The notes under the pieces are model-generated. The model did not search any database, had not been told where the DNA came from, and was given only the letters and a program-made list of their open reading frames with translations. Made by a program: the position numbers and the translations under genes. From contig JAFNUD010000026.1 of assembly GCA_017384225.1 (NCBI GenBank), positions 1 through 63,585 of the forward strand: DNA of 63,585 nt, written 5' to 3'. This DNA is from Paludibacteraceae bacterium (GTDB lineage: Bacteria; Bacteroidota; Bacteroidia; Bacteroidales; Paludibacteraceae). This document shows, one piece after another, positions 6,584 through 63,012 of the stretch. Position 1 is the first letter of the stretch; every line of letters begins with the position of its first letter.

Positions 6584-9500
6584 TTATCGCATTAGTATTT
6601 TTTGAACTTCGTTTTCGCCTGTAACCACATATACGCCAGCAGTTGGTAGGGTGACATCCACTGCGTTTTGTACCATGCCGTTGTAGAGGAGTACGCCAGT
6701 AGATGAGAGTACGCGCACATGTTGTGGCTCTGCCACTGCGATGTTGATACCATTGGTCGTCTTGGTGATGAAGAGGCTATGACCTTCGCTAACACCTGGA
6801 CGTTGTACATTGGTTGGCGTGTTGTTTTCGCTGCCGTTGGTATCATAGATCACCTGACCCGAAGTGGTGACGCCACGTGCAGGCATACCATTTCTTGAAG
6901 GGATATTTGCCATCAAGAAGGACTCTGTAGGATTCACATTCACACCAAATTTATTGTAGCTGAAAGTGGAGTGTTGCAAATCTCCAACATAATTCCAAAT
7001 ATACGTTTCTTCGGTGTTTACGGCATTGAAGGTGTGGTTACCCGTCAGTTTCGCATCATAGTTATTAGGAGCAAATTCGGTAGGGTCTGCATCTACCACC
7101 TCATTGATAGCGTCCGTTCCATCCACAATATGAGGGCCAGCAGTACTCTCGAAGATAAGGAATTTACCCGACCAGTAATCCCAATACTCACGAGAATCAA
7201 TATCGTCACCACATTTTGTACAGAAAGGCAAAAGCATAGAATAAGTCCTACCTTTGTGCATGAGTTTTCCATCAGAAGCATCAGCAAAAACCCATTCGGT
7301 ATTGAACTCTTTTCCTTCAGTACCTGTATATTGCCATACTCCGACATTCTCGTTGAGATAGAAGTCAGAGGTAGCCCAGTTGCTTCCGTTGTATGGCACC
7401 AACGCGGATTTACCGCGGAGGGTGTAAGCCCCCTTTCCATCCCAAGCGCCACTTGCCTTATCTTGGATTTTAGCCCAATCGATATACTCACGGTAGATGG
7501 TCTCGAAGTCCTTTGGTTGTCCAAGTGCTACAGTCACCGCAAAGAACGCAGCAAAGTCCGCATTGTGTTTTGCTTGCTCCAAGAGAATTTGACTTCTTCC
7601 TACTTGCACTTCCTCCCCATTTACTATGATAGTCTCTCCCTCCATATCTTGTAAGAGTTTCTCTGGATAAGTCTCCATGATATAGATATTTGCCACATCG
7701 AATGGAGCAGTGAAGGCTTTCCATACGTCAGCAGTAGCCGTGGTGATATAGTATATCTTATTTTCCACTTGGAATGGTTTTTCGTTGGTAATATAGTATT
7801 CTATTTCATCGCTCACATAACTTGGGTGCACTGGTAAGTATGCCTCACCCACATGTGCAGGGTTCTTTACAGGAGCTTGATAAGAGTCTTTACCAATCTC
7901 TGCGAGAATATTTTCATCAATCTTACAGTACATCAGGTTGACGATTTCCTCGTATTGCATGTCATTAGCCATTGCTACGGAGGCAGTGCCACCGACAGAG
8001 CCACCGTATCCACCATACTGTGCTGCAATCTCGGTCATACAGGTCTTCCAGAATGTTGAAGGCATATCTATCTCTGGTTGAGCAGAAGGCTCGAAGTCTG
8101 GGTCGAACCAGAAGTTGAGGAAGTCGTCGTCCTTATTATCCTTGGTACCATTGTTGTTAGGTGTGACACTCTTCACATTGTATCCTACAGGCACTTGGTG
8201 ATTAACAGGGTCTTCGTCCGATGTCACCACTTTCACCAAACCATTTTCGCCTTCGGTCCAACCGCCCTTCTTACCTGCATCAGGATTCTTAGGGAACTTA
8301 TACAGACCAAGGAGTTTACCCTCGTTACCTGCCTTGTCTTTAGGTGCACCACCCTTGCTGGTAGGAGAAGAACAAGCACGCATCATGCAGTGCGAACCAC
8401 CCTTAACGAAGGTGTTTTGTGGTGTACGCAAGCAGGAGGTAGTAGTGAGTTCATTTCCGCTTGCATCGGTATCCATGAGGTAGTATTGGCGGTAGTTGGC
8501 AGCCACTTCCATAGTAAGAACGGTAGTCGTACCATCGTTGAAGTTGACCGTACCACCTACACCATCGGTACCCATACCGTATGCCAAGAAGATACCAGCA
8601 AATTTACCTATACGTTCGCAAATAGCCATTGAACTTACGTAGTTGGTAGATACAATTTGTGCGTTTTGCAACTCTACTTGACCACCATTGAAGTTCACGG
8701 TAGTGTTTTCCGCACCCATATCAATGGATGGCGCATTGTTGTGTTGTTTTTGCAGACTGAGGAAGCCATTGGTGCGTTTTCCTGCACCAGTCTTGGTGTG
8801 TTGCGATGCTGGCCACTCGTCGGTAAAGTTGAGAACCGTGGTTGTCGTTTTATAGTAGGTATCATCTATCAAACGAATCTGTACAGCAGGCGATACTTGG
8901 AACGCACGTCCCGCAGCAGACTGCAAGAAGCAACCGTAGTTACTCTTGAGCAAAGAGGAATCCAACGTACAGATGGTGACATTCATTGGATTGTCCTCAT
9001 TGTCTTTGTTGTTACAAGCAAATACTAAGACAGCACCCGAACCGCAAGAATATGCACTTGAGAAACTGTTACCATCTTGACGATCTACGAATGAGTGACC
9101 GTCGTGGGTCTTAGCGCGGCTGTAGATATAGCAGTCTTGCAGATAGACATTGATGGACTGACCTGCATTCGCACGGAAATACCACACACCTTCATCGCCC
9201 TTGGTGTAACCTGTAGAAGCGTATGGGCAGAAACCTGTGATATACATGCTGACAGCGGTTTGTCCATCAGGTATTTGCACGGCATCCATATCCTCTTGCG
9301 AAGTTTCGTTCCATGCTTTCTCTTTGGAGTTAGCATTCTCGACACTCTTATGGAATTGATATTGAGTACCGTTCTTCTTGTAAATATAACATGGTGTCTT
9401 AGCATTAGAACCGAGGAGAGTGTTAGGTTGGTTGATGGTTTTACTACCATCGGAAGTGGTAGTTTCGCCATACACGACTACATAATCGAACAGCGCATCA

Positions 9501-12500
9501 CCATTAGGATCAAACGCAGCGTCAATATTCACAGGACGGTGCGTATCGCCTTGCCATTTGCCCGTGAGGGTAACACCATCAGCCTTGTATTTGCCTGCCA
9601 AGGTATAGCCAGGAGCTACACCCGTAAAGATACCAAGGTCACCGCTGGTAATACCTTGTTTCACACCGATAAGTTCTACGGTAGCTAAAAGCTTGGTTTC
9701 GCCATTAACGGAAGCTGTCAACTCGAGTGTTCCGTGTTCGATGGCTTCAGAACCTAACCATTTCACTTTGAGCGGAATATCGCCCATGCCACTACCATTA
9801 AGAATAGCAAAGTGTGTGTTGTCGAGCGTACACTCGGTTCCAAACGAAGTACCGTTATCATACGATACAGTAAAGTTAGGGTTTTTAGAGGTGATAGTGA
9901 GGTTAGGCAAGTTGATTGCAGATACGATTAAATCCTTTTCTACATCGTAATCCAACTCCAAGCGAGCAGGGTTTGCGATGGCACTGGCATCGCCCACGAT
10001 GACGAGGTTAGTCACATCTACCTTCTCCGCATACTCACTCTGATAGATAAGACGAAGCTTGTTGGCAGTAGCCTTGACAAAACGTTTGAATGTACCAGGT
10101 ATGTTATTCTCTACGTCACCGTTATCCAGCACATCACCGTTAGCTGGTGTATGCGGCACAACAATCCAACTATCGCCAATATATTGCTCCAACTCCCAAG
10201 TTCCTTTAGCGGTATTAGCGTAGTTAAAACTGATATAAGTAGGGTTGCCCTTAAACTCGAATATCAGGTATGGAGCTGCATCGGATACTGCATTGTTCAA
10301 TGTAATGGTACGCACACCATCACGACCGTCCCATTCCGCATTGTGGGTGTGGGTCGTCACATAATAGTAACGGTCACCGCCATCGGGTTTGTCGGTTGCC
10401 AACTTGATAGGCAATTCTTGTGGGAAGAGGTAGGTTTGGATAGGAATTTGAAGTTTAAGAGTAGTTCCTTCATATACCTCTAAATAGCCCTCCATCTCTT
10501 CGGTGGCTGTACTCACCACCTCAATACCCTTGACGCCAAATGGATTCTCCTCAGAAGTAGCTGATATTTCCACGAATTCGGTAGGAGCATCGGAAGTGGT
10601 AGATTCTTTTACCTTAAATGCATCATCATTCGATGTTCTCACATACATAATAGATGTATTCGCGTAGGTAAATACCACCTCTTTGGTATAAGGAATCACA
10701 TTGCCATCGGCATCTTTTTGCACGGGTATATAGAGTTTCTCCACATTGGCTTTCACATCTGTCAGCTCGGTGATATAGAGTTCGCTGAGCGAAGCAGGAG
10801 CTGTATTGCCTGCTCCATAGCTGATACGTAAGTAGCGAGTAGATGGCAGGAGCGAATGTTCGAAGACAGTTTTAGCAGCGATATTCTTCCATGGGAAAGA
10901 GGTTGTCCAGTTCGTACCATTGGATGACTCTTCGATTTGCCATGTATTGGCACCCGCAGCTTGGAAATAAATCTTATCAGGTACACCAAAGAAACCTAAT
11001 CTCCATTGTGAGATGCTGCTATTGGTAGATTCGAAGACCACTTTACCATCCGCGCCGTTCTGTCCTGCTACAAATCGTACATCGTCATTTGCAGAGAGTG
11101 TCACCGCACGGAAGACGGTATCGTTGTTGACATCCACACGCAAGTGTCGTGGGTCAACAATGACATGACTGGTGAAGGGTCTGCTTTGTCCGTTTTGCGT
11201 GAAGGTAAAGTCGATCTTGAACGATCCTGCAATCAAGTTCGCCACCGAAGCGGTGTAGTTAGGTGCCGTACCTTGGAAGTTAATGATATTGAACTCATCC
11301 TTTGCTTCCGTGAGTGTCCAACCTGTAGTATTATCTAACATGGTGATAGGTGTGTCGTATTGCTCACCGAGATAGAGGACATCCCAATTCCATTGTACAG
11401 GGTCATTGACCTCGATGGTTTTGGTGAGAGTGGTGCCCGCAATGTTGTTGGTTAGGTCATCTGGTTGTGTAGCAGTAATAGTCACTTCGCCGATAGTATT
11501 AGCAGTCAAAGTAGCCTCAGCGGTATTACCATTGATCGTCACACTATTTGCAGGATTAGCAGTGATAGTGATTGGCTTCGTGTTGTTACCGCCTGCTTTG
11601 AAAATGTACACGCCAGTTTGTCCCTTATATACGGTGTTCAAATCCGCAAACGCAAGGGTATTCGCATTGAGGTAAGAGGCATTACCTGTGAGATGAATAT
11701 CTTTGGAATATACATATTTTCCCGTTACACCATAAGCGTCCTTATAAGTATAAGTTGCGGTAATACGTAGTGTTGCGGTTTTTACGCCATCAGACTTCGG
11801 TTCGAAAGTAATCGTTACAGGAACCGCCGTTGATGATTTGGCACCCAAGGTACAACGGAACTGGTTGGCATGTTCTCCATACAATGTAGATGACCATGTC
11901 AGGCTCGTGCTTGTCCAATTCACATTGGGGTTGTTGGTTGTAATGGTTGTAATTCCTTCAGAGCGGCTTCCTCCTACATATGCTGATGTTGTGTAATCAG
12001 TTACATTAAACATTGGTACATAAGAAACGGGAGTTGGGATATTAGGTCTTTCAGTTTCACTCGTGTTTGGTTTCCAAAGTCCATTTACATACGTATATGT
12101 AGTATTAGCAGCAGGAACTTGGTATGTACCTGTTGCATTTAGCAAACGTGCAGGCGAAACTGGCACAGTAACGGGATTAATTGTACCTCCAAGCATTCCA
12201 GTAGTATATTGACCTTGTTTGGTATTTGAAACTGTACCTAAACTATTAAACACCACCTTACCTCCACCATTTGAGATAATAGCAGCATGATCCACTGTTT
12301 CTGATGTGCTATTTGTAGTATATAAATATCCGTTAGGGGTCTTAACAATACCATCAACCACGAATTTAGCATCTTGTATGCTTGCAGAATTTCGAACATA
12401 CTTTATTCCATCAGGACGAGTTTTAATCGTATGGAACTCTTTATTTGTAGCACCACAATATCCAGTACCACCTATAGTACTATATTTTTTATCATAAACA

Positions 12501-15500
12501 AACACATTTGCGTTTGAAGAGGCACCCAAAATTACCTCTGCACCTTCTGAAACATAAAGCGTTGAACCGGGTAAGAATGCAACATCATACAATACATTCG
12601 TTTTGGTATTCTTGCCCAAAATAACATCATAGTTATGAGGTAGAGGTAAAACATAGTCAGCACTACTTACTGTACCCAATCCTGATATATCCAAAGTAAT
12701 ACTTCCTAATTCCACTGAACCTGTAGCACCATTTTCTGCATCAATAGAGAATTGAATTCGATCGCTATTGACATCATAATACTTTGTTATAGAATATCCA
12801 CTACCCAATTGGAAGAATCCATCATTTTGACTAATAAAAGTAAGTGGCATACGCACAGGGTCATCACCAGCAGCAATTCCTGCCTCAAGAATTTCTTCCG
12901 CACCTGCCTTTATCGTCAAAGGGGCTTCAATATTTTGAACAAAATATTGATTGATAAGAAATATTTTATTATTTTGGAACTTTTGTGTAAGATATGCAGA
13001 AGATGTTGCTGTACCACCTCGCCAGTCATATACTTGCAAGAACTCTTTCACTCGAGAACCATCATTCATAACGATTGAAGAGGATTTTGGTCCTGTAACA
13101 TATCCAAAAGAAATCAATTTGGAGCCACCTAAGAAATTGAGATTACAATTCTCTTTAAGTTCTATATGTCCGTAACTAAATGGTAAACCATTAGGGTTGT
13201 CCGCACCAATTGATACAACCATAGACTGTACACATATAGCAGAACCAGCACTTATAGTAATCGTTGTCCCCTCCTCAACAATCCAACGAATATGTTCAAT
13301 TTTCTTAAATGAACTTGCTGATGCATACTTATATTCTGCAGATGTACCCTTATGAAAATCTGTTGATTCTAAATCTTCTCTATAATCATAAAGACCTTTT
13401 CCTGGAATTATAAATCGTACATTTGCAGGGATAGTGTAATTACCTTTAGGCAATATAGCACTTTTAACAGAATCTCCGTGAGCCACATCGTTCAACAAGA
13501 CAGTTTGAGTACCATTGGTTGCTACCAAACGCTCAGCATCTTTCATCACCAATGCAAAATCGTGATATACAGTTTTATTTGGATCACCTACAATGCTATA
13601 GGTAGCAATGTCCTTATGTACGAATTCAGCCTTAACCTTAACCGCTTTAGTAAATTGATAAGTTGTCAGATCTTCGTATGAAAGATATGTCACGTTGCCC
13701 TCATCAATCATCTGCCATCCAAAGAAATAATACTCATCAGCATCCACATCAGAGGTAAGTGCCATCTCTATATTAGACATACTCTCGTGAGTAACTGCGA
13801 CTTTCAATTCCTCTTTTGCTGAAGCAGTCATCGTGTAGTTTACGCCAGATCCATTGGTCATCTTCACAGTATAGGCACCCTTGCCATCTGTAGGAAGGAA
13901 AGTAATAATTGGTGCTTTCTCCACTACAATAGCCACAGGACGCGTAATGGTTTGTCCTCCGTATGTAGCAGACAATGTAATATTTGCCACTTTACCAACT
14001 GCTGCAGCCAAGTCACCAGTGTATGTTACAACCAATTCGATAAGACCTTGTGTCGCATCGAATGTAATGCTCTGACCATTTCGCGATCCACTGCGGTTAG
14101 ACAATGTAAAATTAGAAGCATCCGCACCAGAGAGAGTTGCTGTCAGCGTATTTCCCTTTTGGAAGTCAATGAGTACTTTTGAATCGTTGATATTACCATT
14201 GCCTTCATCATCAATATAGACAATCATACGATCTTGCTGACGAATATCTATATCCGAGCGGAAGACAGCATAGCGTGGTGCCTCTACCTGTGGGATATTA
14301 GCATTAGTAGAAGAAGTTTCACAATCTACAACTTCTTCTGGATTTTGACTAATAATATTTAGTCCATCAGGAGTAGAAGACCATCCTACAAATTGAGCGC
14401 CTGGACGAGGTTTCGCATAATAATAGACTTTGTATGGAGTAGTTCTATTATTAGCAGCAACTTGATAGGTTTCATCGCTTACTGGTATTTGTTCGCGTGT
14501 ACATTGATCTACACTACTTGGAGTGAGACTAACATGTACATATCCACTACCCAAAGAAGGGGTAGCAACTGCCACTGATGGCGTTTTGTAGTAATGCGAC
14601 TCAAAAACCGCATAGAAAGTAGGAGTACGATATGGTTTTTCTGGCGACATGTTTTCAGAAGTCACTGTATGGGTATAACTAAACACCTCCCCTTCTGCCA
14701 CGACATATGAAACCTCTCCACTTGGAGTTGTTGCCCATCCTTTGAAAGCAATTTTAGTTGGATCTAAGGATTTAGCATAATAGTAATAAGTGTAATCCTT
14801 GTTTTTTTGAGAATACACCTGATCATCCCTCTTGCTAACGACCCACATATTGTTTGCGACATTAGCATTAGATCCTGCCTCACCATTATCCGCATATACT
14901 CGTCCTTTAGCTTCTCTCTCAAATTCATCGCCAGCAATATTCACAGACACACCATAGTGATAGTATGTTTGCGTCTTACGGAAGACGGCATACATAGTTT
15001 CTGCTTTTGGTGCTTTGGCTTTATTGGAATATTTAGTGGTAGATGTATATGTACGAGAATACATTTTATTGGTATTATCCGCAATATTTGGACCTATCAC
15101 GCCATAGTCAGTAAGTTGCTTGTTTAGCGTAGTAGCACTATACCATCCTACGAACTCATAATCATTTGCCTCATCTGCTTTTGCATAGTAAACATAGGTC
15201 CATTCTGCTTTATCGCCATTATATGTCTTTATATTAGCATCTGCAGTACCTCCTACAGTAAAAGTTGGCGCATTAGAAGCCTCCTCATTGATTGCTACCC
15301 AACCACCATCTCGGATATAGTCATCATTAGCATCTTTCAAAATATTACCAGTTCCATCGATCAAAATTACTTCTGCATGAGCGTAGTCATAATATACAGT
15401 CTGCTCTTTGAAAACTGCATAGTAAGTTTTGGTAGTTGGACTACTACTTTTGCCAGTCGCTGAAAATGACAGATGATAGGGTTGCACATTCGTATTTGCA

Positions 15501-15808
15501 ATCGGCGATGATCCGTTTGCATTGGTACTCCAACCTACATGATAATAACCTGTATTAGGTTTGTTATATAACCAAAATTCAGCTGTAATGCTACTACGTA
15601 TAGTCCATTCTGAATCTGTTGAATTATCGGTAGTTAAGTACTCATTATCTGCTGGCGGATTATTCTCCGACTTCGTCACCCATACCAATCCATAATTCGT
15701 TGAATTAGTTGCAACATTTACAACACACTTTCCGTAATATGTACCAAGAGCCATAGCACTCATTGAAAAGAGTGAAGTAAAAATTAAAATTGATAATAAT
15801 TTTTTCAT
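6584..15808 (-). CDS. Giant T9SS-exported surface protein (3,074 aa)
   Basis: A signal peptide (MKKLLSILIFTSLFSMSAMA) is followed by four or five modules of about 100-130 residues. Each ends in a YYAVF(K/R) strand followed by aromatic-rich YYxYxVxV, resembling InlB-B / Listeria-Bacteroides beta-grasp repeats (roughly residues 20-530). The middle is a long series of Ig-like and discoidin-like beta modules. The last ~70 residues are a typical T9SS type A sorting domain: an LFITKTTNG strand, VRVLSSTGVLLYNG, VDVTLPTAGVYVVTG, and a final KILMR. Export by T9SS and attachment to the surface follow from that family knowledge; the ligand is unknown. No T9SS machinery genes lie in the window. Upstream is repeat-rich and no clear promoter was found. 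Confidence 0.9.
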   Translation of the reverse strand: MKKLLSILIFTSLFSMSAMALGTYYGKCVVNVATNSTNYGLVWVTKSENNPPADNEYLTTDNSTDSEWTIRSSITAEFWLYNKPNTGYYHVGWSTNANGSSPIANTNVQPYHLSFSATGKSSSPTTKTYYAVFKEQTVYYDYAHAEVILIDGTGNILKDANDDYIRDGGWVAINEEASNAPTFTVGGTADANIKTYNGDKAEWTYVYYAKADEANDYEFVGWYSATTLNKQLTDYGVIGPNIADNTNKMYSRTYTSTTKYSNKAKAPKAETMYAVFRKTQTYYHYGVSVNIAGDEFEREAKGRVYADNGEAGSNANVANNMWVVSKRDDQVYSQKNKDYTYYYYAKSLDPTKIAFKGWATTPSGEVSYVVAEGEVFSYTHTVTSENMSPEKPYRTPTFYAVFESHYYKTPSVAVATPSLGSGYVHVSLTPSSVDQCTREQIPVSDETYQVAANNRTTPYKVYYYAKPRPGAQFVGWSSTPDGLNIISQNPEEVVDCETSSTNANIPQVEAPRYAVFRSDIDIRQQDRMIVYIDDEGNGNINDSKVLIDFQKGNTLTATLSGADASNFTLSNRSGSRNGQSITFDATQGLIELVVTYTGDLAAAVGKVANITLSATYGGQTITRPVAIVVEKAPIITFLPTDGKGAYTVKMTNGSGVNYTMTASAKEELKVAVTHESMSNIEMALTSDVDADEYYFFGWQMIDEGNVTYLSYEDLTTYQFTKAVKVKAEFVHKDIATYSIVGDPNKTVYHDFALVMKDAERLVATNGTQTVLLNDVAHGDSVKSAILPKGNYTIPANVRFIIPGKGLYDYREDLESTDFHKGTSAEYKYASASSFKKIEHIRWIVEEGTTITISAGSAICVQSMVVSIGADNPNGLPFSYGHIELKENCNLNFLGGSKLISFGYVTGPKSSSIVMNDGSRVKEFLQVYDWRGGTATSSAYLTQKFQNNKIFLINQYFVQNIEAPLTIKAGAEEILEAGIAAGDDPVRMPLTFISQNDGFFQLGSGYSITKYYDVNSDRIQFSIDAENGATGSVELGSITLDISGLGTVSSADYVLPLPHNYDVILGKNTKTNVLYDVAFLPGSTLYVSEGAEVILGASSNANVFVYDKKYSTIGGTGYCGATNKEFHTIKTRPDGIKYVRNSASIQDAKFVVDGIVKTPNGYLYTTNSTSETVDHAAIISNGGGKVVFNSLGTVSNTKQGQYTTGMLGGTINPVTVPVSPARLLNATGTYQVPAANTTYTYVNGLWKPNTSETERPNIPTPVSYVPMFNVTDYTTSAYVGGSRSEGITTITTNNPNVNWTSTSLTWSSTLYGEHANQFRCTLGAKSSTAVPVTITFEPKSDGVKTATLRITATYTYKDAYGVTGKYVYSKDIHLTGNASYLNANTLAFADLNTVYKGQTGVYIFKAGGNNTKPITITANPANSVTINGNTAEATLTANTIGEVTITATQPDDLTNNIAGTTLTKTIEVNDPVQWNWDVLYLGEQYDTPITMLDNTTGWTLTEAKDEFNIINFQGTAPNYTASVANLIAGSFKIDFTFTQNGQSRPFTSHVIVDPRHLRVDVNNDTVFRAVTLSANDDVRFVAGQNGADGKVVFESTNSSISQWRLGFFGVPDKIYFQAAGANTWQIEESSNGTNWTTSFPWKNIAAKTVFEHSLLPSTRYLRISYGAGNTAPASLSELYITELTDVKANVEKLYIPVQKDADGNVIPYTKEVVFTYANTSIMYVRTSNDDAFKVKESTTSDAPTEFVEISATSEENPFGVKGIEVVSTATEEMEGYLEVYEGTTLKLQIPIQTYLFPQELPIKLATDKPDGGDRYYYVTTHTHNAEWDGRDGVRTITLNNAVSDAAPYLIFEFKGNPTYISFNYANTAKGTWELEQYIGDSWIVVPHTPANGDVLDNGDVENNIPGTFKRFVKATANKLRLIYQSEYAEKVDVTNLVIVGDASAIANPARLELDYDVEKDLIVSAINLPNLTITSKNPNFTVSYDNGTSFGTECTLDNTHFAILNGSGMGDIPLKVKWLGSEAIEHGTLELTASVNGETKLLATVELIGVKQGITSGDLGIFTGVAPGYTLAGKYKADGVTLTGKWQGDTHRPVNIDAAFDPNGDALFDYVVVYGETTTSDGSKTINQPNTLLGSNAKTPCYIYKKNGTQYQFHKSVENANSKEKAWNETSQEDMDAVQIPDGQTAVSMYITGFCPYASTGYTKGDEGVWYFRANAGQSINVYLQDCYIYSRAKTHDGHSFVDRQDGNSFSSAYSCGSGAVLVFACNNKDNEDNPMNVTICTLDSSLLKSNYGCFLQSAAGRAFQVSPAVQIRLIDDTYYKTTTTVLNFTDEWPASQHTKTGAGKRTNGFLSLQKQHNNAPSIDMGAENTTVNFNGGQVELQNAQIVSTNYVSSMAICERIGKFAGIFLAYGMGTDGVGGTVNFNDGTTTVLTMEVAANYRQYYLMDTDASGNELTTTSCLRTPQNTFVKGGSHCMMRACSSPTSKGGAPKDKAGNEGKLLGLYKFPKNPDAGKKGGWTEGENGLVKVVTSDEDPVNHQVPVGYNVKSVTPNNNGTKDNKDDDFLNFWFDPDFEPSAQPEIDMPSTFWKTCMTEIAAQYGGYGGSVGGTASVAMANDMQYEEIVNLMYCKIDENILAEIGKDSYQAPVKNPAHVGEAYLPVHPSYVSDEIEYYITNEKPFQVENKIYYITTATADVWKAFTAPFDVANIYIMETYPEKLLQDMEGETIIVNGEEVQVGRSQILLEQAKHNADFAAFFAVTVALGQPKDFETIYREYIDWAKIQDKASGAWDGKGAYTLRGKSALVPYNGSNWATSDFYLNENVGVWQYTGTEGKEFNTEWVFADASDGKLMHKGRTYSMLLPFCTKCGDDIDSREYWDYWSGKFLIFESTAGPHIVDGTDAINEVVDADPTEFAPNNYDAKLTGNHTFNAVNTEETYIWNYVGDLQHSTFSYNKFGVNVNPTESFLMANIPSRNGMPARGVTTSGQVIYDTNGSENNTPTNVQRPGVSEGHSLFITKTTNGINIAVAEPQHVRVLSSTGVLLYNGMVQNAVDVTLPTAGVYVVTGENEVQKILMR

Positions 15809-18197: not shown

Positions 18198-18270
18198 GTC
18201 GCTTCGCTCCGTTATATGCTTCGCGTTGTTATGTTACATGCTTACGCGTTACATGCAGCTGAGCTGCGTT
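18198..18270. repeat. Modular hairpin array, spacer GTTACATG
   Basis: Spacer GTTATATG / GTTACATG alternates with short self-complementary inserts CTTCGCG, CTTACGCG and GCAGCTGAGCTGC. Same spacer as the array at 62331-62400. Confidence 0.7.
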
Positions 18271-18646: not shown

Positions 18647-18705
18647 TCACAAATGCCTTTTTTCGTTTCTTTACTATTGTTTCACTATTTCAACGATCAC
18701 TTTCG

Positions 18706-18838
18706 GCTCCTCAGCGAGGAGCGTTGTGTGCAGCGGAGCTGCGTTGTTTGTCCGCAAGCGGACGTTTCATGCACCTTTGGTGCGTTGTATGTGGCAAAGC
18801 CACGTTGGTTGGTTATTTTATGTTGTCGCCCGAGGGCG
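18706..18838. repeat. Six-hairpin modular array (copy A), spacer GTTGTRTG
   Basis: Perfect inverted repeats in order: GCTCCTC-AGC-GAGGAGC (18706), GCAGC-GGA-GCTGC (18730), GTCCGC-AA-GCGGAC (18750), GCACC-TTT-GGTGC (18771), GTGGC-AAA-GCCAC (18791) and CGCCC-GA-GGGCG (18827). The first five are joined by GTTGTGTG, GTTGTTTG, GTTTCATG and GTTGTATG, with a period of 20-21 bp. A near-identical copy lies at 20441-20573, on the other side of the ATPase gene. Confidence 0.92.
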
Positions 18839-18921
18839 GGATAGTCGCAATGGACAATAACAAAAAACGGTAATTCCGTTTTTATTGAAATTACCGCTTA
18901 AATACACTATAGACAATTGGA

Positions 18922-20211
18922 TTAGTCTTTCAAACAGCCAATTGGAATAACATATACACCATCCTTTCGGCGTAATCCGACTTTGCCTCCTGTAAGAACT
19001 ATCAACAAGTCTGGCTCACGAATCGGCACCTGCTTCTCAGTCAGATTATGCTCACGAATCAACTCTTGCAACTCCAACAAATGAGCGGCACCTGCATCTA
19101 CATCAGCGCTTCCTAACTTACACTCAATAAGTGCATATCGACCATCATCCAAATGCAAAACAATATCAGCCTCCAAGCCATAACGATCATTATAATATGA
19201 CACCGTAGCATATTGGTCGGCTGTATATGCCTTCAAATCGCGAATACATAATTGCTCGAAAATAAAGCCAAATGTATTCAACTGCATCTGCATTGACTCT
19301 GGCGTTAATCCCAACAAAGCAACTGCTATAGAAGGATCACAGAACCCACGTTTTGAGCCACTACGGATAGTAGTCTTACTACGTATGGCTGGACACCATG
19401 CTCCTACATCTTGAATGACAAACAGTCGCTCTAAAGCATTCACGTAATCCATAAACGTAGGGCGAGTGCAATCCATATCATCTGATGCTACTACATCTTG
19501 CAACATTTGACTGGTCTTTGCTAATGTGGATATATTGCGTGCATACGAACGCAATATCTGACGTGTAAGTTGCGAATTACGGCGAACACCATCTATACGC
19601 ATTATATCAGAATTACAAACGGTATTCACATAATCACGCGCCACAGACAATGCAGCTTTTTTACTTTTTGCACAAACAGCAGCAGGCCATCCTCCACGAC
19701 AAGCAGCAAATATCAAATCATCTACTGAAAGAGTTGACAATACTTCAAAATCCATTTGAGGATTGTCAAACAATGCACTAAGAGAGATTGCACCATTGCT
19801 CTCTTGCGATTCCCACAAACTCATCGTACCCATCTGCAATCGAGAGATTCTACCTGTACCAGAGTGGCGTATCTGCGTTTCATCAACTACATTAGAACCC
19901 GTTAGAATAAACTGACCCGATAATTGTCGCTTATCCACTTCGATGCGCACAGCATCCCATACTACGGGGTAATCCTGCCACTCATCAATCAAGCGAGGGG
20001 TGTTACCCTGCAAGAACAACGAAGGACGATTTTTGGCAATCACATCATAATTACCACGCTCATCAGGGTCTTGCAAACGAATGATCGATTGAGCTTGTTG
20101 GGCAGCAGTAGTAGTCTTGCCACACCACTTAGGACCCTCAATCAACACTGCACCCATCGACTCTAACCGTTGCAACAACAATCTGTCCGAAATACGCTTA
20201 AAATACCTCAT
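18922..20211 (-). CDS. AAA_14 / DUF4143 family ATPase (paralogue A)
   Basis: 429 residues from the ATG at 20211; an upstream ATG at 20268 is rejected because it lies beyond the -7 promoter element. P-loop GPKWCGKTTT (26-35), Walker B-like PRLIDEWQ near 72-79, FILTGSN sensor near 98-104 and the DUF4143 C-terminal half, ending in a PD-(D/E)XK-like pattern (ADIVLHLDDGRYALIECKLG). The family is widespread in Bacteroidetes with no settled function; ATP binding is well supported. It is about 40% like the next gene upstream. The gene is flanked by near-identical hairpin arrays, and three 22-23-bp direct repeats sit upstream of its promoter. Confidence 0.88.
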   Translation of the reverse strand: MRYFKRISDRLLLQRLESMGAVLIEGPKWCGKTTTAAQQAQSIIRLQDPDERGNYDVIAKNRPSLFLQGNTPRLIDEWQDYPVVWDAVRIEVDKRQLSGQFILTGSNVVDETQIRHSGTGRISRLQMGTMSLWESQESNGAISLSALFDNPQMDFEVLSTLSVDDLIFAACRGGWPAAVCAKSKKAALSVARDYVNTVCNSDIMRIDGVRRNSQLTRQILRSYARNISTLAKTSQMLQDVVASDDMDCTRPTFMDYVNALERLFVIQDVGAWCPAIRSKTTIRSGSKRGFCDPSIAVALLGLTPESMQMQLNTFGFIFEQLCIRDLKAYTADQYATVSYYNDRYGLEADIVLHLDDGRYALIECKLGSADVDAGAAHLLELQELIREHNLTEKQVPIREPDLLIVLTGGKVGLRRKDGVYVIPIGCLKD

Positions 20212-20237
20212 AATTATATCACTTTTCAAATTCGCTG

Positions 20238-20269
20238 CAAAGATACTAATAATTATTGAATTACACAAA
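20238..20269 (-). promoter_or_regulatory. Promoter of ATPase paralogue A
   Basis: Minus strand: TTTG (20269-20266), 20 nt, TATCTTTG (20245-20238), 27 bp before the ATG at 20211. It decides the start codon. Confidence 0.8.
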
Positions 20270-20334: not shown

Positions 20335-20440
20335 ACAAGTTTGGAAAAATTGTGGTAAACACCATGCAGTTTGATATACACAAGAATTTATATTTCTTGC
20401 GTATATGCGGTAATTTCAATATTTCAAAGATCGCTTTCGG

Positions 20441-20573
20441 CTCCTCAGCGAGGAGCGTTGTGTGCAGCGGAACTGCGTTGTTTGTCCGCAAGCGGACGTT
20501 TCATGCACCTTTGGTGCGTTGTATGTGGCAAAGCCACGTTGGTTGGTTATTTTATGTTGTCGCCCGAAGGCGA
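20441..20573. repeat. Six-hairpin modular array (copy B)
   Basis: Nearly the same as 18706-18838, including the leader TTTCAATATTTCAAAGATCG just before it (20414-20440). Two stems have a single mismatch here: GCAGC-GGA-ACTGC and CGCCC-GA-AGGCG. It lies in the 434-bp gap between the two ATPase genes; apart from this array, the promoter and the direct repeats nothing else is seen in that gap. Confidence 0.9.
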
Positions 20574-22140: not shown

Positions 22141-22205
22141 TTTCAATATTTCAAAGGTCACTTTTGCTCGGCATGCCGAGCGTTGTGTGCGGCGGAGCCG
22201 CGGTT
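22141..22205. repeat. Short hairpin array with shared leader, spacer GTTGTGTG
   Basis: Leader TTTCAATATTTCAAAGGTCA (22141-22160), then GCTCGG-CAT-GCCGAGC-like hairpin, spacer GTTGTGTG, and GCGGC-GGA-GCCGC. The remainder of the 373-bp gap (21963-22335) holds the ATPase promoter and operator repeats, a CCCCCTTC/GAAGGGG hairpin near 22222-22242, a partial GGTTAGAGG-type repeat and a long terminator-like hairpin. Confidence 0.75.
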
Positions 22206-27827: not shown

Positions 27828-27833
27828 TAAAAC

Positions 27834-28000
27834 AGATCGCCCTGCGGGCTGTAGATCGGCGCAAAGCGCCTGTAGAACTTAGATCGGCTTCGCCTGTAGA
27901 CTACCACAATAATCTACAGCGAGTGTAACGAGCGATCTACAACGAGCGAAGCGAAGTGATCTACAGTGAAACGATCTACAGCGAGCACTGCGAGCGATCT
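27834..28000. repeat. Modular hairpin array, spacer TGTAGATC, copy upstream of ychF
   Basis: 167 bp. The first half reads GATC-GCCC-TGC-GGGC-TGTAGATC-GGCGC-AAA-GCGCC-TGTAGA, then GATC-GGC-TTC-GCC-TGTAGA. The second half carries the spacer inverted (GATCTACA) between GCGAGTGTAACGAGC, ACGAGCGAAGCGAAGT and GCGAGCACTGCGAGC. So the spacers point towards the middle from both ends. Only four positions differ from the copy at 29124-29290. Confidence 0.92.
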
Positions 28001-28014
28001 AAAAACTAGAATAC

Positions 28015-29121
28015 ATGGCTTTACAATGTGGTATCGTGGGTCTGCCTAATGTAGGCAAATCGACCCTCTTCAACTGCCTTAGCAATGCCAAGGCGCAGTC
28101 AGCAAACTTCCCTTTCTGCACCATCGAACCTAACGTGGGTGTGATTACCGTGCCAGATGAGCGACTCATCAAACTGGGCGAGCTCTGCAAACCAGAGCGC
28201 GGTGTTATCCCTACTACCGTTGAAATCGTGGATATTGCTGGATTGGTGAAGGGTGCAAGCAAAGGCGAAGGATTAGGTAATAAGTTCCTCGCAAATATCC
28301 GTGAGACGGACGCAATTATTCACGTACTCCGTTGTTTTGACGATGAGAACGTAGTACACGTGGACGGTAGCGTAGATCCTATTCGTGATAAAGATATCAT
28401 CGATGCAGAGCTTCAGCTCAAGGACCTTGAGACTGTGGAGTCTCGTATCCAAAAGATTGAGAAGCAAGTGCGCGTCGGAGGCGATAAACAAGCAAAAGTA
28501 GCACTCGATGTACTCCTCAAATACCGCGATGCCCTCTCTCAAGGCAAATCTGCTCGTACTGTGGAACTTATCAATAAGGACGAGGAGCAAGTAGCCAAAG
28601 AAACCATGCTACTCACCAGCAAGCCTGTGCTCTATGTCTGCAATGTGGATGAAGCATCGGCTGTTGATGGCAATAAGTATGTGGAGCAAGTGCGCGAGGC
28701 AGTGAAAGATGAGAATGCACAAGTGCTTATCGTAGCTGCTAAGATTGAGAGTGAGATTGCCGAACTTGAGACCTATGAAGAGCGTGAGATGTTCCTATCT
28801 GAAATTGGACTTACCGAATCTGGTGTTAGCCGTCTCATCAAATCAGCGTATGCATTACTTGAGCTCCGCACCTTCCTTACCGCTGGTAGCGACGAGGTAC
28901 GTGCTTGGACCTTCAAAGCGGGTAGCAAAGCGCCTCAATGTGCGGGTGTGATCCACTCCGACTTCGAGCGCGGTTTTATCCGTGCTGAGGTAATTAAGTA
29001 TGAGGATTATATCGCACTGGGTGGTGAATCGCAATGCCGTCAAGCGGGCAAACTGGGTATCGAAGGCAAGGAGTATGTCGTTCAAGATGGCGACATTATG
29101 CACTTCCTGTTTAACGTATAA
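28015..29121 (+). CDS. ychF: Redox-sensitive ATPase YchF (Obg-related, OLA1 type)
   Basis: 368 residues, the usual length. P-loop GLPNVGKSTLF (8-18), DIAGLVKGASKGEGLGNKF switch II (about 72-90), and NVDE in place of NKxD at about 209-212, the change that makes this family prefer ATP. A C-terminal TGS domain follows (RAWTFKAGSKAPQCAGVIHSDFERGF). YchF associates with ribosomes and affects stress responses in characterised bacteria. The gene stands alone between two near-identical 167-bp hairpin arrays, an unusual setting for such a conserved gene. Confidence 0.97.
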   Translation: MALQCGIVGLPNVGKSTLFNCLSNAKAQSANFPFCTIEPNVGVITVPDERLIKLGELCKPERGVIPTTVEIVDIAGLVKGASKGEGLGNKFLANIRETDAIIHVLRCFDDENVVHVDGSVDPIRDKDIIDAELQLKDLETVESRIQKIEKQVRVGGDKQAKVALDVLLKYRDALSQGKSARTVELINKDEEQVAKETMLLTSKPVLYVCNVDEASAVDGNKYVEQVREAVKDENAQVLIVAAKIESEIAELETYEEREMFLSEIGLTESGVSRLIKSAYALLELRTFLTAGSDEVRAWTFKAGSKAPQCAGVIHSDFERGFIRAEVIKYEDYIALGGESQCRQAGKLGIEGKEYVVQDGDIMHFLFNV

Positions 29122-29123
29122 TC

Positions 29124-29290
29124 AGATCGCCCTGCGGGCTGTAGATCGGCGCAAAGCGCCTGTAGAACTTAGATCGGCTTCGCCTGTAGACTACTACAAT
29201 AATCTACAGCGAGTATAACGAGCGATCTACAACGAGCGAAGCGAAGTGATCTACAGTGAAACGATCTACAGCGAGCAATGCGAACGATCT
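29124..29290. repeat. Modular hairpin array, spacer TGTAGATC, copy downstream of ychF
   Basis: 167 bp, differing from 27834-28000 at four positions. It begins three bases after the ychF stop and ends 14 bp before the antiporter start. Confidence 0.92.
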
Positions 29291-29304
29291 AAACAATAAA
29301 AACA

Positions 29305-61138: not shown

Positions 61139-61238
61139 AAATGTTTTTGATTTAAAAAGTTAAATAAAAATTGTTAGTTGTTTTTATGTTGTTTTTGTTT
61201 GTTTCAGAGTTTCATGCAGCGGAGCTGCTTGTTTCACG

Positions 61239-61350
61239 CCCGTTGGGCTGTTTCTATTCTTTGCCTTTCTAGGCGGATGCCGCTCTTTCCATTCCGTTGG
61301 AAAGACGCTCCGGGCTGAAGCGAAATTGGTTTCGCTATCGCTTCACGAAT
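61239..61350. repeat. 112-bp direct repeat, left copy
   Basis: Identical over all 112 bp to 62478-62589. It contains hairpins CCCGTTGGG, GGCG-GAT-GCCG (approx.), TTCCGTTGGAA and a larger GAAGCGAAA/TTTCGCTATCGCTTC pairing. The two copies bracket the YafQ-type toxin-antitoxin pair. Confidence 0.95.
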
Positions 61351-61382
61351 AATGGCTAAAGCGTTGTTATATGAAAATAGAC

Positions 61383-61458: not shown

Positions 61459-61734
61459 CTATCCAAAAATATCAGAGTGGGTACCCGTACCTGTAAATAT
61501 TAATGTCAATTCATTATCATTTTGAATCCACACCAACAACCAATCCCCTTTAATATGCGCCTCCCAATAGTTGGCATAATTACCAGATAACTTATGTGGA
61601 CGATATGAGAGAGGCAGTTGACCTTTCTCTGCCAAAATACGAATAGCCTCTTTTAACAACTCCAAATCGTAGCCGCGTTTTTGGCATCGCTTGGTATCTT
61701 TGTTAAAAGCATTAGTGTATTTAACCTTGTACAT
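61459..61734 (-). CDS. YafQ-family toxin (RelE superfamily)
   Basis: 91 residues from the ATG at 61734, two bases after the antitoxin stop; a TTG at 61740 is an alternative. Family pattern: YTNAFNKDTKRCQKRGYDLELLKEAIRIL, LPLSYRPHKLSGNYANYWEAHIKGDWLLVWIQ and the end LIFTGTGTHSDIFG. The His in the HKLSG segment, the HIKGDW segment and the C-terminal THSDIFG match YafQ, a ribosome-dependent mRNA endonuclease. Partner of the upstream antitoxin gene, with a terminator after it. Confidence 0.92.
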   Translation of the reverse strand: MYKVKYTNAFNKDTKRCQKRGYDLELLKEAIRILAEKGQLPLSYRPHKLSGNYANYWEAHIKGDWLLVWIQNDNELTLIFTGTGTHSDIFG

Positions 61735-61736
61735 AC

Positions 61737-61946
61737 TCAAATACCTAATGATTTGAACATATCATCTACCGAGTCAAAGGCCTGAACTCGACCATGTTTG
61801 ATGTCTTCCATAGAACGCTCAAGACTACCCTTCTTACGAAGAGCCTTAGGGGTGCGTTGGATATTGACCCTCAATGTCTCTAAGTACGCCAAAAGTGCCT
61901 TGCCCTGAGCCGAACGCTCGTTGATAGTTAATGTGTAAGTTGCCAT
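61737..61946 (-). CDS. Antitoxin partner of the YafQ-type toxin
   Basis: 69 residues from the ATG at 61946, chosen because it lies 31 bp after a promoter; the longer frame to 62030 would include the promoter. The start MATYTLTINERSAQGKALLAYLETL fits small antitoxins found before YafQ-like toxins in Bacteroidetes, with a ribbon-like first strand. The rest is polar with a hydrophobic C-terminus (VDDMFKSLGI) that could bind the toxin. Probably represses its own promoter. Confidence 0.85.
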   Translation of the reverse strand: MATYTLTINERSAQGKALLAYLETLRVNIQRTPKALRKKGSLERSMEDIKHGRVQAFDSVDDMFKSLGI

Positions 61947-61976
61947 AATATAATCGTTAATTGAGATTTTGCGGTG

Positions 61977-62008
61977 CAAAATTACAGAAAATAATTCATG
62001 TACACAAG
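61977..62008 (-). promoter_or_regulatory. Promoter of the YafQ-type toxin-antitoxin operon
   Basis: Minus strand: CTTG (62008-62005), 20 nt, TAATTTTG (61984-61977). Confidence 0.6.
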
Positions 62009-62330
62009 AGTTATTGCAAAAAATGTGCAAAACGCAGGCATTTTTTACTCCAATGCAACCTGATACATACTTATCAGTCTATTTTCAATATATCAAAGAA
62101 CACTTGGCTTTGTGTGCAGGCACACAAAAATACCAACTATGCCGTCACGTGGACAGGTATAGATGGTATGATATAGTATGCGCTATTGGCGCAGTTGTGT
62201 TTTGCGAATTGAGAATCACCCCCCCCATTTGCTCTAATTCGCAGTAGATTAGAACATTAGACATATTTAAGTGGTTGGAAACCATTTGATAAATAGGTGA
62301 TATGTTAGAGGTGGTGTACATGTTGTTTCA

Positions 62331-62400
62331 CGTTACATGCGGCTTGCCGCGTTACATGCGCTTTAGCGCGTTATTATGTTACATGTGGCTGTGCCACGTT
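62331..62400. repeat. Modular hairpin array, spacer GTTACATG
   Basis: GTTACATG alternates with GCGGC-TT-GCCGC, GCGCT-TT-AGCGC and GTGGC-TGT-GCCAC. The three stems share no sequence but each pairs perfectly. Confidence 0.9.
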
Positions 62401-62477: not shown

Positions 62478-62589
62478 CCCGTTGGGCTGTTTCTATTCTT
62501 TGCCTTTCTAGGCGGATGCCGCTCTTTCCATTCCGTTGGAAAGACGCTCCGGGCTGAAGCGAAATTGGTTTCGCTATCGCTTCACGAAT
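62478..62589. repeat. 112-bp direct repeat, right copy
   Basis: Identical to 61239-61350. Confidence 0.95.
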
Positions 62590-63012
62590 AGTATTATTTG
62601 GCGTATTTGAGGTTTAACGCAACTACAATTTGTTAGGTCCCTCTCGCACCCGTGCATACGCACTTACCCTCGCGCGTGAATTCTCGCCACAAAACAGCCT
62701 ACAAAGGTAGTAAAAATTTAAACAATATACAAGAAAATGCAGCAAAACATGTTATCAAACATATAATTCGCTGTTTTTTCGTTAAAAGACACTACTGTCC
62801 ACTAAAAAACAAGGGAGATTTATTAAAAACAAAAATTAGTCAAAATTAGATCAGAAATTATCAAAAATTAGAGTTTGCACTACCAAAATTGTTGTATATT
62901 GTCATTACTTTCCCTTGAAAATCAGGATAGACTTGCATTATTCAACAAATAATAGTACCTTTGCAGGCGAAAACAAAAAGACAATAACACCAACAATATC
63001 CCCAACACAACT

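Follow-up and report, generated by a model that had tools for sequence, protein, structure and literature searches.

Tandem hairpin arrays with variable, self-complementary stems in a Paludibacteraceae genome and its relatives: a possible family of small mobile palindromic repeats

A row of hairpins at positions 18706-18838 raises the question of how the two arms of a stem stay complementary when the stem sequence differs from one hairpin to the next. The row lies in a contig of 63,585 nucleotides from a Paludibacteraceae bacterium, the whole of which is called the window here. We analysed about 30% of the window's own genome (G000), one contig (280 kb) of its close relative G014, the further close relatives G073, G041 and G055, and individual loci designated by L numbers. 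The genomes are metagenome-assembled; G000 is 88% complete and 5.8% contaminated, and G014 is 98% complete.

The six perfect inverted repeats in a row reported by a sequence-only reading were confirmed, since the 146 nt from 18700 to 18845 contain six perfect hairpins that do not overlap and that have arms of 5 or more and loops of 2 or 3 nt (Table 1). Among 5000 dinucleotide shuffles of this stretch, 4117 contained no such hairpin, 826 contained one, 56 contained two and a single one contained three. The start-to-start steps were 24, 20, 21, 20 and 36, and the period of 20-21 bp proposed for the first five hairpins therefore holds for three of their four steps and fails for the first. The four linkers that join these five hairpins are all 7 nt long. 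In the second copy of the array (copy B), one pair of word 2, at 20464, is broken (GCAGC gga ACTGC). The copies at 18680 and 20414 adjoin two related DUF4143 genes (44% identical). An open reading frame of 3074 aa (6584-15808, minus strand) lies near the array region.

Table 1. Hairpin words, linkers and array copies in the window
Feature	Positions	Strand	Basis or context
Hairpin word 1, GCTCCTC(agc)GAGGAGC	18706..18722	.	hairpin scan
Linker GTTGTGT	18723..18729	+	direct reading
Hairpin word 2, GCAGC(gga)GCTGC	18730..18742	.	hairpin scan and linker-defined words
Linker GTTGTTT	18743..18749	+	direct reading
Hairpin word 3, GTCCGC(aa)GCGGAC	18750..18763	.	hairpin scan
Linker GTTTCAT	18764..18770	+	direct reading
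Hairpin word 4, GCACC(ttt)GGTGC	18771..18783	.	hairpin scan and linker-defined words
Linker GTTGTAT	18784..18790	+	direct reading
Hairpin word 5, GTGGC(aaa)GCCAC	18791..18803	.	hairpin scan and linker-defined words
Hairpin word 6, CGCCC(ga)GGGCG, at wider spacing	18827..18838	.	direct reading; included in shuffle count
Whole focal array (copy A)	18680..18838	+	window repeat search
Copy B, 97% identical to copy A	20414..20572	+	past DUF4143/AAA_14 gene 18922-20268
Words with GTTATAT/GTTACAT linkers: GCttcGC, GCAGC(tga)GCTGC, imperfect GCTTACGC	18200..18270	+	
Two-word array GCTCGGC(at)GCCGAGC gttgtgt GCGGC(gga)GCCGC	22166..22201	+	
Short array GCAGC(gga)GCTGC / GCCC(gtt)GGGC, adjoining a 113-bp repeat	61216..61250	+	
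Three-word array with GTTACAT linkers: GCGGC(tt)GCCGC, GCGCTTTAGCGC, GTGGC(tgt)GCCAC	62331..62400	+	
TGTAGATC/GATCTACA-dialect array	27830..28011	+	between iPGM gene and ychF-type GTPase gene
96% copy of the 27830-28011 array	29120..29301	+	other side of the ychF-type gene

The side loci at 18200, 22166, 61216 and 62331 that had been named together with the focal array are real but smaller, with two or three words each and one imperfect word. Copy B and the arrays at 27830 and 29120 are additional to the loci named in the sequence-only reading. Single genes were found to be flanked by near-identical arrays that lie 1.3-2.0 kb from each other. The array at 27830-28011 lacks palindromy in some of its words, and the genes bordering this array and its copy at 29120 show no sequence similarity to each other; in L148, copies at 7380 and 9350 border another DUF4143 gene. 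The window contains six direct-repeat families of at least 40 nt, with nearest copies 1.0-1.75 kb apart and two of the six in similar coding DNA, and no inverted repeat family of that length. The order array-gene-array, with copies flanking single genes, two of them of the DUF4143/AAA_14 type, is consistent with integron-like attachment sites (structure-recognised attC) between cassettes. We regard this reading as extremely improbable, since a flanked gene may be of the housekeeping type (ychF), arrays also lie inside genes and the words are tandem.

Three further observations concern the sequences around these arrays. The GTT-dialect arrays at DUF4143/AAA_14 ATPase genes (window 18680, 20400 and 22140; L148 7380 and 9350) have in common a TTTCAATATTTCAAAGA-like stretch directly before the first hairpin. 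A YafQ-type toxin gene (61459-61740) and a small ORF (61737-62030) lie between the two copies of the 113-bp repeat (61239-61351 and 62478-62590), which are 100% identical. Repeats of the AGGTTAGAGGTTAAAGGCGAGAGG type, at window 15818, 16884 and 18273 and at the ychF flanks of L360 (G041), are a low-complexity element of gene junctions and gene interiors in the clade and are partly self-complementary as a whole.

Comparison of the loci showed that the array unit is a linker of 7-8 nt and a short, mostly perfect hairpin word, typically with a 3-nt loop closed by C-G. The linker patterns, which were picked after inspecting the data, fall into the dialects GTTWCAT, GTCCWRTA, GATCTACA and RGTWRTG, which differ among loci and species. 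The single constant GTTnnATG spacer first proposed was thus replaced by a linker that varies by locus and species; the proposal of variable stems on constant spacers stood insofar as stems vary while linkers stay alike, but no one linker is constant. In several long arrays (the lipoprotein-gene arrays, C1, C40 and window 27830), the linker switches halfway to its reverse complement. L160 and L239 contain plain 15-bp units whose stems have two base pairs, the run in L160 (8315-8645, G000; unit GATCTWCA GCnnnGC) lying within an ORF, and such units may be the simplest form of the arrays.

A linker-blind scan for hairpin clusters (at least three hairpins, score at least 24) over 0.84 Mb, made up of the window, about 500 kb of G000 and 280 kb of G014, gave 16 clusters, some of which resemble chance within coding DNA, as against 1 in one shuffled set. 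Beyond the GTT dialect, the clusters showed four linkers (RGTWRTG-like, GTCCWRTA, GATCTACA and a longer GTTTAGTGGAC-like one). Next to hairpins, the hexamer TATAGG was seen 15 times in G014 (2.5 expected, 0 in the mirror control) and TTACAT 18 times in G000 (6.3 expected, 1 in the mirror control), where two hexamers rank higher; the smaller samples of G073, G041 and G055 gave no clear linker signal. In 57 selected distinct words (at least 3 outer pairs, loop of at most 5; a few resemble chance), the stems were 3-6 bp and began with G or C in 47; the loop was 3 nt in 41 and the closing pair C-G in 45, as against 887 and 994 of 2902 background hairpins.

Pairing was then measured by an arm-swap test, in which words were defined by linkers alone, their arms were scored and the 3' arms were swapped among words (2000 swaps). 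In the GTCC dialect of G014 (280 kb, pattern GTCC[ACT][AG]TA), 90.5% of the arm positions of 16 distinct words were paired, 12 of the 16 words fully, as against 58% on average and 77-78% at most after swapping. In the GTT dialect of G000, 24 of 162 segments were fully paired and pairing was 38.8% (swap mean 25.9%, maximum 32.2%); this result was obtained with a tighter regular expression, which was adopted because an initial loose one (620 distinct words, 26.2% against 25.4%) was dominated by chance segments. Two dialects thus show non-random pairing of stems that vary. The GATCTACA dialect of G000 reached 56% (swap mean 47%, maximum 66%), with 14 of 24 segments fully paired, mostly as two-base stems. 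The GTT dialect of G014, with 5 of 60 segments fully paired, remained at 30.9%, below the swap maximum of 36.8%, and fully paired GTT segments numbered 1 of 21 in G073 and 0 of 15 in G041 and G055 together. The GTT dialect was at chance level in the 74 named control loci, which are more distant (1 of 245 segments fully paired, 22.7% against 24.5%); 4 of 9 GTCC segments were fully paired there, all in L239. Stem mismatches were too few to show a wobble bias by eye; one altered stem reads T-G.

A detector requiring similar linkers gave 4 hairpin arrays and 0 mirror-repeat arrays in G014 at a score of at least 20, and 9 and 5, respectively, in the G000 sample outside the window. In 80 named loci it gave no high-score excess, mirror repeats outnumbering hairpins there. 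Two named Bacteroidales MAGs that are more distant have hairpin clusters with similar linkers, at L277 16228-16288 and L279 16849-16897; these may be due to chance or be arrays of independent origin.

The claim that pairing exceeds chance was thus borne out by both the shuffles and the arm-swap test, which contradict chance as the origin of the arrays. Ordinary terminators were considered together with chance, since bacterial genes often have hairpins behind their stop codons. An intrinsic terminator is a GC-rich hairpin followed by a T run; direct reading of 18706-18845 showed no long T run behind the hairpins, and the words are tandem and have in-frame copies. CRISPR consists of identical repeats, unique spacers and cas genes; here there is no long constant repeat with unique spacers, the constant part being 7-8 nt and the variable part palindromic. 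Chance, terminators or CRISPR-like repeats are accordingly a very improbable explanation.

We then compared orthologous sites at tpiA, ychF, ddl and a lipoprotein gene, where some genomes have an array and others have none or a replacement. The distance from the tpiA stop codon to the next ATG is 2 nt in six close relatives (G014, G073, G055, G041, L224 and L226), and the same junction carries an array in G000, with about 217 bp extra, and in L228. The first stem and the last stretch of these two arrays are common and the middle is different; no clear site duplication was seen by eye. In the tpiA neighbourhood of L228, positions 11524-11597 (minus strand) gave an Rfam match to the Bacteroidetes FopS family of paralogous sRNAs. 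The same GATCTACA array lies on both flanks of ychF in G000 and in G014. In G041 both flanks have another repeat, G073 has two different elements and G055 has nothing; in six more distant genomes neither flank has the GATCTACA array. The ddl junction has an array in G014, one short word in G073 and no array in G000 or G041; G055 gave no ddl match. The sequence-only reading had held that arrays occurring only here would point to chance or a local duplication, and this did not apply because arrays with other stems recur in the genome and in relatives. The carriers probably belong to the Paludibacteraceae; most of the named relatives retrieved via TpiA carry the label Paludibacteraceae or Bacteroidales MAG, and they come largely from the gut of ruminants and horses.

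The lipoprotein gene has arrays in G000, G014 and G041; none of this kind was found behind two lipoprotein paralogues of G000 or at two gene ends of G055. Seven of the nine G014 words were comparable to those of G000 by eye, in register. Both arms had changed in four of these seven words (including one gained and one lost pair), one arm in one word (T-G in coding orientation) and neither in two; the loops had changed in six of the seven. The main rival explanation is that the hairpins are selected as RNA structure (mRNA 3'-end protection, attenuation or operon-internal processing), with free sequence and constrained pairing. Several arrays begin a few nucleotides past a stop codon (window 27830 and 29120, L129 4975, L131 8208, L164 5537 and tpiA), and whole arrays fold stably, with z of -2.5 to -5.0 against mononucleotide shuffles, which are a weak control. 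The in-register words with two-arm changes and the identity of arrays above that of coding DNA also fit such selection. Against it, sister species have nothing or unrelated elements at these junctions, shared arrays keep their loops and linkers as well, beyond what selection on structure alone demands, and no Rfam match was found in the window or, at gathering scores, over the arrays of nine loci. The position of some arrays within coding sequences (rsmH, FAD, M16 and glycogen synthase genes) also speaks against selection as RNA structure, which we consider rather unlikely.

The arrays are not confined to non-coding DNA. In G014, in-frame words occur at two sites of a FAD-dependent protein and also in rsmH, in an M16 peptidase, in an RNase H protein and in an ORF whose AAA_33 match is weak and below threshold; in G000 they occur in glycogen synthase. 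Alignment with one to eight relatives each showed that the in-frame words of rsmH, the FAD gene, glycogen synthase and the RNase H linker are variable loops or linkers between conserved segments; the M16 word is in frame, and its ortholog is absent from the sequences compared. Site 2 of the FAD gene differs in content in each of five close genomes: G014 has a GTCC-dialect word, G000 a word whose linker is of the GTT dialect, G073 a tandem microsatellite, G055 a further word of GTCC type and G041 almost nothing. At the loop of the same gene that holds an in-frame insert, G041 and G055 carry unrelated inserts. In being inserted in frame in conserved genes and absent or different in relatives, the arrays behave like RPEs.

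Compared between genomes, shared copies had 96-100% identity, as against 61-65% at third codon positions. The two ychF arrays of G000 and G014 are identical at 321 of 334 positions, as against 1940 of 2297 in neighbouring coding DNA and 222 of 365 at ychF third positions, and identity drops to 0.78-0.93 in the hundred bases adjoining the arrays. The FAD insert is identical at 57 of 57 positions between G000 and G073 and at 56 of 57 between G000 and G014; elsewhere in the gene, third positions are identical at 328 of 512 and 330 of 509, respectively. Such identity points either to strong constraint or to recent arrival or exchange; because sister species hold other or no content at these sites, recent spread or exchange accounts for it better than base-by-base selection. 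The suggestion that the arrays are a mobile repeat gained support from presence and absence at tpiA and ychF, from the array copies flanking genes and from the identity of the FAD insert.

Mobility could be due to an enzyme that recognises hairpin shape and linker and not stem sequence, such as a single-strand transposase or recombinase. In favour of such an enzyme, copies of a dialect are dispersed, some sites are empty, some insertions are in frame, and several species hold near-identical content at corresponding sites. Against it stand the lack of a clear site duplication at tpiA and the Y1_Tnp (RAYT) search, which gave no match in G000 (88% complete) or G014 (98% complete), and we judge it unlikely. 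Among nine genomes searched, Y1_Tnp matched in two, above the cut-off in G065 and below it in the close relative G041; the search control matched in 5 of 14 genomes.

Two other candidates were rejected. For carriage by phages, the paired GTTWCATG pattern occurred in 38 stretches of viral contigs, none with five paired bases; two other dialect patterns occurred in 3 and 18 stretches (3 and 19 matches), of which 1 and 2 were palindromic by a loose criterion. Neither a blastn search of one array against plasmids nor such a search of a second array against phages gave a match. Loss of exonuclease VII is not the cause in G000, because the gene is present in 16 of 18 genomes, being missing in G055 and G075.

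On balance, we think it probable, by a narrow measure, that the arrays are a small mobile REP/RPE-like palindromic family whose drifting stems stay self-complementary, perhaps via hairpin-templated copying. In a folded single strand, one arm could template the other (quasipalindrome template switching), and the arms would thus stay complementary; slippage and recombination may copy and multiply the linker-word units, and the arrays may persist as tolerated or selfish DNA and not as a required control element. Template switching is described as making quasipalindromes perfect or more perfect (PMC7202029). The broken stems (as in the word at 20464) and the pairing of the GATCTACA dialect and the G014 GTT dialect below the swap maximum speak against this explanation. 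A further reading, possible though doubtful, is that of an element that writes palindromes: the linker dialect and the hairpin shape would be inherited and spread, and the stem letters would be rewritten and kept complementary by copying, in non-coding DNA or in frame in a conserved gene, and with exchange between species involving little flanking DNA. If this were true, one element could carry almost any stem.

The arrays allow one to ask how a genome keeps writing perfect palindromes, in carriers that are some gut bacteria. They form a natural series (empty site, units with two-base-pair stems, elaborate words and in-frame copies) for testing the birth, spread and arm matching of palindromic DNA, and they are a source of new peptide loops in conserved proteins. 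A literature search by title and the start of the abstract, with most subscription journals outside its coverage, gave no description of such arrays.

The claim that REP patterns do not fit has to be qualified, since the behaviour of the arrays resembles that of REPs and Rickettsia palindromic elements. RPEs and CGTC REPs are described as short palindromic sequences that occur between genes and also in frame within conserved genes and are sometimes clustered (PMC3733652, PMC2229807), and the arrays are like them in location, palindromy and in-frame insertion; for CGTC repeats, PMC3733652 gives a dedicated transposase as not known. The CGTC REPs of that source have stems of 8-9 bp that almost always begin with A-T, loops of 4-5 nt and tails that are mostly CCA (PMC3733652). 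Compared with these and with RPE-4 and RPE-6, the present stems are 2-7 bp and largely free in sequence, the loops are mostly 3 nt and the constant part is the linker. The RPE tabulated in PMC2229807 is a 105-146-bp element with 12-bp terminal inverted repeats, whereas the arrays are open-ended and made of units of about 15-24 bp. GTAG REPs, which are associated with RAYT, lie mostly near gene 3' ends, supply stop codons and include many families with 2-3-nt loops and subfamilies with complementary stem changes (PMC3733652). The arrays resemble them in these respects, but have no general GTAG tag, no Y1_Tnp in G000 or G014 and no stem conserved in the family; an unpaired GTAG is absent from the linkers GTTWCAT, GTCCWRTA and RGTWRTG, and only the TGTAGATC dialect has GTAG, one base off the stem.

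The repetitive hairpin-forming elements of sponge mitochondria are likewise tandem hairpins with a lineage-specific invasion of intergenic DNA and genes (PMC2800124). As described there, their stems are conserved and their loops variable, whereas here both stem arms vary, the linkers are conserved and the host is bacterial. Quasipalindrome template switching also perfects imperfect inverted repeats, but as described in PMC7202029 it concerns single reporter or hotspot sites and not spreading arrays with a constant linker. In the work cited, palindromic repeats of bacteria and mitochondria are recognised by conserved tags or stems; in the present arrays the linker is kept, the stem is largely free and the dialects differ between species. 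Because REPs and RPEs have tags and stems that the arrays lack, we file the arrays as palindromic mobile repeats outside any named family.
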